A stretch of DNA of 37,173 bases from Candidatus Woesearchaeota archaeon. GTDB lineage: Archaea > Nanobdellota > Nanobdellia > SCGC-AAA011-G17 > JACPNG01. Positions within the stretch are counted from its first letter, which is position 1. Each line of letters begins with the position of its first letter. Where the stretch lies: contig JACPNG010000016.1 in the NCBI GenBank assembly GCA_016185605.1, forward strand, positions 1 through 37,173. Reading direction: 5' to 3'. Below the pieces are notes generated by a model. The model had not been told where the DNA came from. It did not search any database and saw nothing but the letters and a program-made list of their open reading frames with translations. Shown here piece after piece: positions 7,119 through 7,958 of this stretch. Both the position numbers and the translations under genes were made by a program.

Positions 7119-7154
7119 TTGAGCTACGTGGGGAATATAACTTTTAATTATAAT

Positions 7155-7166
7155 CTATTTATAAAA
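7155..7166 (-). promoter_or_regulatory. TATA box of tRNA-Tyr inside the homing endonuclease 3' end
   Basis: TTTTATAAATAG is centred about 28 bp upstream of the tRNA 5' end at 7133. The same bases are the last codons (Phe-Tyr-Lys) and the stop of the homing endonuclease gene. Confidence 0.55.
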
Positions 7167-7958
7167 CTTATCAATGTTCTCCTTTTTACGCCTATAAAAA
7201 CATGATGAATCATAAATCTTTTTAATCTTCTTTAAATCATTGCCTCTACATATTCTAATAGAAAATGTATTTGTTAATTTATTATCTCTTATTATTTTAC
7301 CACAATTTATATCCAATTCACTTAATATTCTTTTTATACCTTCCAAAAATTTTATTGAACCAGAAGCTATTTTTACATTGTTAACTAATATAGAACCATC
7401 TCCATCAATAACGCCTCTTAAAAATGCTTTCTTCAGCTCAATATTACTCTTTTCAATTATGCTAGGAACTATAACAATAGAAGATTTATTTCCTGAAGGC
7501 ATATCAAAATTTTTAATTAAAAAAGTAGCTAATTCTCTAGAATTTATTCTTATCTCATAATTTGGTTTCTTATTAAAACCATTTATTCTAGAACTAAATG
7601 TGGAGTTATAGTTAAATAAGTATTTAATGAGCTTTAGAATCATTTCTTTCTCTTCAGGATAACTAGTATAAATTGCTATCTTATAATTTTTTAATAATTT
7701 ATCATAACGAATATGACCATCAGTAATCAACAAACCTATGAAATATGAAAGTTCTGAGGTTAATTCTAAGGGTATTATTGGATATTGATTGTATCTAACA
7801 TCATATCCTGCAGATTTCATCATATTATTCCAGCTACCAAAATATTTTTTGCTATGATTATAAAGAATAGAACTATCGTGTTTTGTTGGTCTTCTACCTA
7901 ACTCTTTATGAAAATTTTTAATATCTAGAATTAACTTATTTTTTTCAAATTCAAACAT
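7155..7958 (-). CDS. LAGLIDADG homing endonuclease
   Basis: A site-specific DNA endonuclease of 267 aa with two LAGLIDADG helices in one chain: FIGLLITDG at 73-81 and LRGVIDGDG at 180-188, with acidic catalytic candidates D80 and D187. Residues 1-53 look like a homing-endonuclease-associated repeat (ELGRRPTKHD, then YFGSWNNMMKSAGYDV), which contributes DNA contacts. It is free-standing, not inside a visible intron or intein, and ends 21 bp before the intron-bearing tRNA-Tyr gene on the same strand. It may have entered with, or acted on, a tRNA intron. Both active-site Asp residues are intact, so it may be active. A TATATAAAT lies directly before the ATG, too close to serve it as promoter. Confidence 0.85.
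   Translation of the reverse strand: MFEFEKNKLILDIKNFHKELGRRPTKHDSSILYNHSKKYFGSWNNMMKSAGYDVRYNQYPIIPLELTSELSYFIGLLITDGHIRYDKLLKNYKIAIYTSYPEEKEMILKLIKYLFNYNSTFSSRINGFNKKPNYEIRINSRELATFLIKNFDMPSGNKSSIVIVPSIIEKSNIELKKAFLRGVIDGDGSILVNNVKIASGSIKFLEGIKRILSELDINCGKIIRDNKLTNTFSIRICRGNDLKKIKKIYDSSCFYRRKKENIDKFYK

Follow-up and report, generated by a model that had tools for sequence, protein, structure and literature searches.

The window, a stretch of 37,173 nt, is contig C12 of an 857-kb archaeal genome whose closest named relative match is a Woesearchaeota MAG. A LAGLIDADG homing endonuclease gene lies there in front of a tRNA-Tyr gene with two introns, and both genes are on the minus strand (Table 1). 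The Pfam search of the endonuclease ORF found two LAGLIDADG_3 stretches (3.8e-14) and the N-terminal HNH_repeat. The AlphaFold model of the protein had a pLDDT of 89.8, and the Foldseek search with this model matched I-DmoI with a TMt of about 0.8. Both LAGLIDADG catalytic aspartates are conserved. With two motifs carrying catalytic acids and the fold, the ORF meets the criteria of a LAGLIDADG homing endonuclease, and its DNA cleavage is inferred. The stop codon occupies 7155-7157, which leaves a gap of 21 bp to the tRNA start at 7133. The initial annotation, made from the sequence alone, had described a free-standing two-motif LAGLIDADG gene ending 21 bp before an intron-bearing tRNA-Tyr, and the coordinates, the Pfam search and the fold confirmed it. 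Both introns are within the tRNA, and the ORF stops 21 bp short of it. Therefore, the endonuclease is not intron-encoded and fails the criterion of that class, an ORF inside the mobilised intron. Elsewhere in the window, Type I restriction-modification-like genes (HsdM/HsdS/HsdR-like, as judged by eye) occupy 27962-36142 and are preceded by an HNH-containing ORF.

Table 1. Features of the tRNA-Tyr locus and its surroundings in the window.
Feature	Position	Strand	Remarks
tRNA-Tyr(GTA) gene	6987..7133	-	two introns; C1-G72, A73; found by intron-tolerant scan
Anticodon-loop intron	7023..7076	-	ends approximate (within about 2 nt); also in relatives, whether or not they have the endonuclease
D-loop intron (predicted)	7098..7118	-	21 nt, ATCCATTTTTATGGGGAGCAA; spliced D-arm GCTCAA^TGGCAGAGC; 4-bp helix, 3-nt bulge, 5-bp helix
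LAGLIDADG homing endonuclease gene	7155..7958	-	267 aa; N-terminal HNH_repeat at residues 6-53; motifs GLLITDGH and GVIDGDGS
Putative tRNA-Tyr TATA box	7158..7165	-	TTTATAAA; in the last sense codons of the endonuclease (Phe-Tyr-Lys), -32..-25 from the mature tRNA 5' end
Possible displaced promoter	7980..7996	-	CAAAAGATTTTTAATAT; before the endonuclease start; matches the G001 (L087) tRNA-Tyr promoter at 16/17 positions; score 19
Membrane protein gene	14576..15994	-	homologue directly before tRNA-Tyr in gene-less L089 and L090

The tRNA-Tyr gene at 6987-7133 was not called by ARAGORN and Rfam on the window because the two introns interrupt it. A scan for a T-arm with a matching acceptor stem gave the stem CCCCACG/CGTGGGG with A73 and the anticodon GTA. 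The C1-G72 pair with A73 is the archaeal tRNA-Tyr signature. An alternative tRNA start, GGGGAGC, was rejected: CCCCACG is fully complementary to CGTGGGG, and the relatives agree. The tRNA carries an anticodon-loop intron and a second one, the 21-nt D-loop intron, which was not named in the initial annotation. The insertion site of the D-loop intron is GCTYAR^YGG in 13/13 intron-bearing tRNA-Tyr genes compared, the lengths in these genes range from 17 to 37 nt, and all of the inserts are predicted to form a hairpin. Beside a 3-nt bulge, pairing between the insert's 3' end and the 5' D-stem strand is possible in nearly all of the 13. The second helix of the hairpin varies in sequence between cases with its pairing maintained, and the 3-nt bulge with a helix is predicted in most of the 13, the window included. 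A predicted cut after the second bulge base restores a D-arm like that of intronless relatives. The insert meets the description of an archaeal bulge-helix tRNA intron in a relaxed form without a closed second bulge, a judgement made from predicted pairing, and its splicing is inferred. The tRNA-Tyr gene at L016:3815-3998 has apparently four introns (one in the D-loop, two in the anticodon loop and one in the variable loop), and its anticodon GTA is visible only after predicted splicing.

The initial annotation also held that the last codons of the endonuclease form the TATA box of the tRNA at about -28. Such a TATA box was found at this place (Table 1). Relatives with and without the gene were compared, and the TATA distance was alike, the median start being -33 with the endonuclease and -32 in gene-less relatives. 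The TATA box was within or touching the last endonuclease codons in 13/14 gene-bearing loci. In L160, the ORF ends about 10 nt before it. The typical overlap is ...Asn-Ile-Phe-Lys-stop, encoded by AAT ATA TTT AAA TAA. The C-terminal amino acids are different in the window, L016 and L109, and the TATA box is kept. A TATA box of such strength at -40..-23 occurred in 13/14 gene-bearing loci, and the background in other windows of these coding regions was only 8.5% (p about 1e-13), so the overlap is not due to chance. The element satisfies the criterion of an archaeal TATA promoter, a conserved distance upstream of the RNA start, as far as sequence can tell. Its use as a promoter is inferred without transcription data, and a co-transcript from the upstream promoter could supply the tRNA as well.

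A pattern specific for tRNA-Tyr (G72, A73) was searched in 103 genomes of the order, and endonuclease homologues were sought around the hits. The D-loop intron was present in 11/14 tRNA-Tyr loci that carry the gene or a remnant of it (three of the 14 are from outside the order), compared with 2/46 loci without (Fisher p=7e-8). Two false positives of the classifier with normal D-loops, L103 and L137, were removed by eye from these counts, and the surveyed loci are not fully independent by descent. The two gene-less loci with the intron are L113, where a fossil of the gene's 3' end appears to serve as promoter, and L111, which has no recognisable gene. The intron background is not zero, as these genomes have many non-canonical tRNA introns that lack an associated endonuclease. 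Within the window's family, the endonuclease-less tRNA-Tyr genes of G001, G004, G005 and G008 have a normal D-loop and keep the anticodon intron. The sole close homologue obtained by direct search, in L016, is 54% identical and belongs to another family and order. It, too, stops shortly before a tRNA-Tyr whose D-loop contains an intron, and the genes farther upstream differ from those of the window. L159 and L160, from other families, were found via the protein profile alone, and both have the D-loop intron. The gene and the intron meet the criterion of a collaborative homing pair, in which the homing endonuclease gene is outside, adjacent to and co-occurring with the intron; cleavage at the intron site is inferred. 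The suggestion of the initial annotation that the tRNA gene is itself the target gains support from the co-occurring D-loop intron, which it had missed. Its further idea, an enzyme that escaped from an intron, is conjecture. There are exceptions. L143 combines a seemingly intact endonuclease with a standard D-arm that is free of the D-loop intron, and L142 (gene broken by TGA) and L092 (a remnant) also lack the intron. It is possible that L143 departs from the rule that a homing endonuclease is blocked by an intron at its insertion site, for which there are no cleavage data.

The homologues at E<=1e-88 were found only in front of tRNA-Tyr, on the same strand and in many host families. Copies of the endonuclease at unrelated loci would have spoken against the link with this tRNA, and none was seen at that threshold. 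The profile leaves a clear gap after these members, followed by the tRNA-Tyr deletion remnant (L121/L161) at 4e-32 and other lineages at 1e-28. Viral contigs contained no member of the window's endonuclease clade, the best match having 33% identity. In the endonuclease tree, the window was grouped with L016 from another order and L138 from another family (96/95), and most other branches were unresolved. This grouping across families and two orders suggests horizontal movement, although movement between hosts is only inferred from the tree.

Filled and empty sites were compared in two same-genus pairs. G092 with the gene (L143) and G093 without it (L144) share 79% identity over 1.1 kb upstream, which ends just past the TATA box. 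In L143, the native TATA box precedes the endonuclease start by about 66 bp, and the last endonuclease codons hold a new tRNA TATA box. G091 (L142) and G094 (L145) share 89% identity up to -39, and the similarity resumes at the first base of the tRNA. Here, the gene replaces the segment between -39 and the tRNA, including the TATA box of the empty allele. The two comparisons indicate an insertion point between the tRNA and the promoter region upstream of it. A native promoter retained upstream of the endonuclease is clear only in L143. In the window, CAAAAGATTTTTAATAT is possibly the displaced native tRNA promoter, but the match is merely suggestive because the best shuffle also scores 19. The membrane protein gene of the window is the ancestral neighbour of tRNA-Tyr and is now about 7 kb away.

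Decayed copies were also informative. L092 and L121 have internal deletions in which the middle of the gene is gone and both ends, including the 3' end with the TATA box, are kept. Stop codons lie inside the genes of L142 and L160. In L113, the gene is absent, and about 34 codons of its 3' end remain, running into the TATA box, with the D-loop intron kept. The profile test of this fossil gave E=1.8e-6 in comparison with 0.09 for the best control. Since the remnants of L092, L121 and L113 keep that end, gene loss seems to spare it. The initial annotation had proposed that the arrangement stabilises the element, as losing the gene would also remove the promoter of an essential tRNA. The decayed copies with the TATA end lend this idea indirect support; the cases are few and do not prove it. 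Widespread fossil tails ('NIFK' before the TATA box) in gene-less relatives were considered as well, and the profile test with controls supported only L113. The remaining 'NIFK'-like tails fit ordinary BRE/TATA sequence.

We consider it probable that the locus is a two-part homing element for tRNA-Tyr, which consists of the endonuclease gene and a protective micro-intron and replaces the tRNA promoter with its own 3' end. Comparison of loci supplied the tRNA-Tyr specificity, the co-occurrence with the D-loop intron, the invariant intron site, the TATA box in the ORF, the filled and empty sites and the remnants; cleavage, splicing, promoter use and transfer between hosts are inferred. The enzyme would cut an intronless tRNA-Tyr gene in its nearly palindromic D-arm (GCTCAAYGGYAGAGC). 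If the break is repaired with a gene-bearing copy as template, both the intron and the endonuclease gene about 40 bp upstream would be copied in. Co-conversion of the two is expected because only about 40 bp separate the end of the gene from the presumed cut. The acquired intron would destroy the cut site, and the splicing endonuclease would remove it from the pre-tRNA. The gene would land between the old TATA box and the tRNA, and for this reason its 3' end must carry a replacement, its final codons doubling as the tRNA promoter. Copies would later decay from the middle with the promoter-bearing end kept.

Another reading, which we regard as unlikely, takes the D-loop intron as a host defence against an endonuclease gene that moves alone, an application of the Randau-Soll idea to homing. 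Introns have been proposed to shield tRNA genes from integration (PMC4090602, PMC3293823), and the intron without a gene in L111, as well as the gene or remnant without an intron in L142, L143 and L092, would agree with such a defence. However, the identical position of the 17-37-nt intron in 11 gene-bearing loci of many families, as well as the remnant beside the intron in L113, is more easily explained by co-transfer.

It is quite unlikely, in our judgement, that tRNA genes act here merely as general integration hot spots, with the TATA overlap as a by-product of compact genomes and a joint transcript starting upstream of the endonuclease. The window's clade is found at tRNA-Tyr only, on one side and in one orientation, and the TATA box is near the canonical distance in all gene-bearing loci, far above background. 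Even so, in these genomes many LAGLIDADG genes border on or overlap a tRNA gene, in one orientation or the other, and the ORFs running into the tRNA in L128 and L143 make joint transcription possible. The protein might also be a domesticated, WhiA-like LAGLIDADG DNA-binding regulator of tRNA-Tyr that has given up endonuclease activity. The fold matches include WhiA, and the gene is conserved for long at one locus. We find this very improbable, as both catalytic aspartates are kept, the best whole-fold matches are active endonucleases such as I-DmoI, and the patchy distribution with repeated decay by stops and deletions is the pattern of a selfish gene.

The two-part homing element for tRNA-Tyr shares properties with several known systems. 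I-DmoI and its kin come from archaeal hosts with protein-spliced bulge-helix-bulge introns. The window's endonuclease resembles them in its monomeric two-motif fold, its archaeal host and, by prediction, the protein-spliced type of intron. Those enzymes are encoded in large rRNA introns, whereas the window's gene is not contained in its micro-intron, is linked to a tRNA and encodes an additional HNH_repeat at the N terminus. Collaborative homing of a free-standing homing endonuclease gene with a neighbouring group I intron has been described in T7-like phages and a cyanophage (PMC10448857). There too, the endonuclease gene is outside the intron, the pair co-occurs and cleavage is expected at the insertion site of the intron. 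The tRNA-Tyr element differs in its archaeal chromosome, its LAGLIDADG enzyme, the overlap of the gene with the promoter of its target, and its intron, which is a 17-37-nt bulge-helix tRNA intron, presumably spliced by protein, and not a group I intron. Phage T4 SegB is cited in PMC10448857 as a homing endonuclease gene beside phage tRNA genes, and its tRNA-Tyr context is given in PMC13096335. SegB is likewise a free-standing gene tied to the inheritance of a tRNA gene region, but it belongs to a different nuclease family and is in a phage tRNA cluster. We know of no intron partner or promoter overlap for it. In the tRNA-Thr of Caldiarchaeum, intron gain by an integrating element with an integrase/att mechanism was proposed (PMC3293823). 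A mobile element bringing an intron into a tRNA gene and perhaps protecting the site is common to both cases, and the window has an endonuclease gene rather than integrase/att. No description of such tRNA-linked homing endonucleases in archaea was found in the open literature (the subscription literature was outside the scope).

The window seems not to be an isolated case, since other LAGLIDADG ORFs adjoin or overlap other tRNA genes. In the window's family, about 14-15 of the 25 free-standing LAGLIDADG ORFs are within 150 bp of, or overlap, a tRNA gene. Several take their stop codon from the tRNA itself (TAG at tRNA positions 8-10), and in L019 and L053 the ORF crosses the 5' half of the tRNA into the tRNA intron. 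More distant lineages are at tRNA-Arg, tRNA-Leu and Ser-like genes. We put forward, only tentatively and as something that may well not hold, the view that selfish elements of this sort form a class in Woesearchaeota. Every LAGLIDADG lineage would serve a single tRNA gene, insert between the promoter and the 5' end of that tRNA, seize the native promoter for its own use and provide a substitute from its last codons. If this is true, loss of the entire gene would switch off an essential tRNA, amounting to a toxin-free form of genetic addiction. The paired micro-introns would then account for some of the many non-canonical tRNA introns in these archaea. For the origin of such introns, protection from mobile elements or delivery by them has been proposed, usually with integrases as the agents (PMC3293823, PMC4090602). 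A specific enzyme gene with a specific intron at one tRNA in many families makes the question directly testable. The inferred promoter substitution is likewise an unusual route for a selfish gene to become hard to lose.

Some individual loci are described here in their own right. The LAGLIDADG genes at 1942-2665 of L019 (G000:C8:70000-77000) and at 2304-3067 of L050 overlap the 5' end of a tRNA that is Thr-like, with the anticodon TGT after removal of an insert of about 12 nt between the D-stem and the anticodon stem. In G001, the stop codon at the Thr-like tRNA is the TAG of positions 8-10, and in G000 the ORF extends 56 nt into the tRNA. The order tRNA-Asn, LAGLIDADG gene and tRNA-Ile-like gene is conserved in three genomes of the family (L023, L046 and L043). 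The tRNA-Asn of G000 has a D-loop intron with a GGGAGCA end as in the Tyr intron, and the tRNA-Asn intron of G010 is about 190 nt. The 3' ends of LAGLIDADG ORFs overlap tRNA genes in L041, L042, L048, L039, L053, L038 and L049; the overlapped tRNAs are His, Ser-like, Arg, Gln and Leu on the same strand, and Pro (L038) and another in antisense. In L021 and L022 on contig C5 of the window's genome, the 16S gene overlaps one LAGLIDADG ORF and the 23S gene two to three, presumably in introns. L052:1900-2290 (minus strand) has a direct repeat of about 80 bp (GCGGTAGCTCAATCTGAGAAGAGCAAGGGTTAACACTCTGC...) in an apparently heavily disrupted tRNA gene downstream of a LAGLIDADG ORF.
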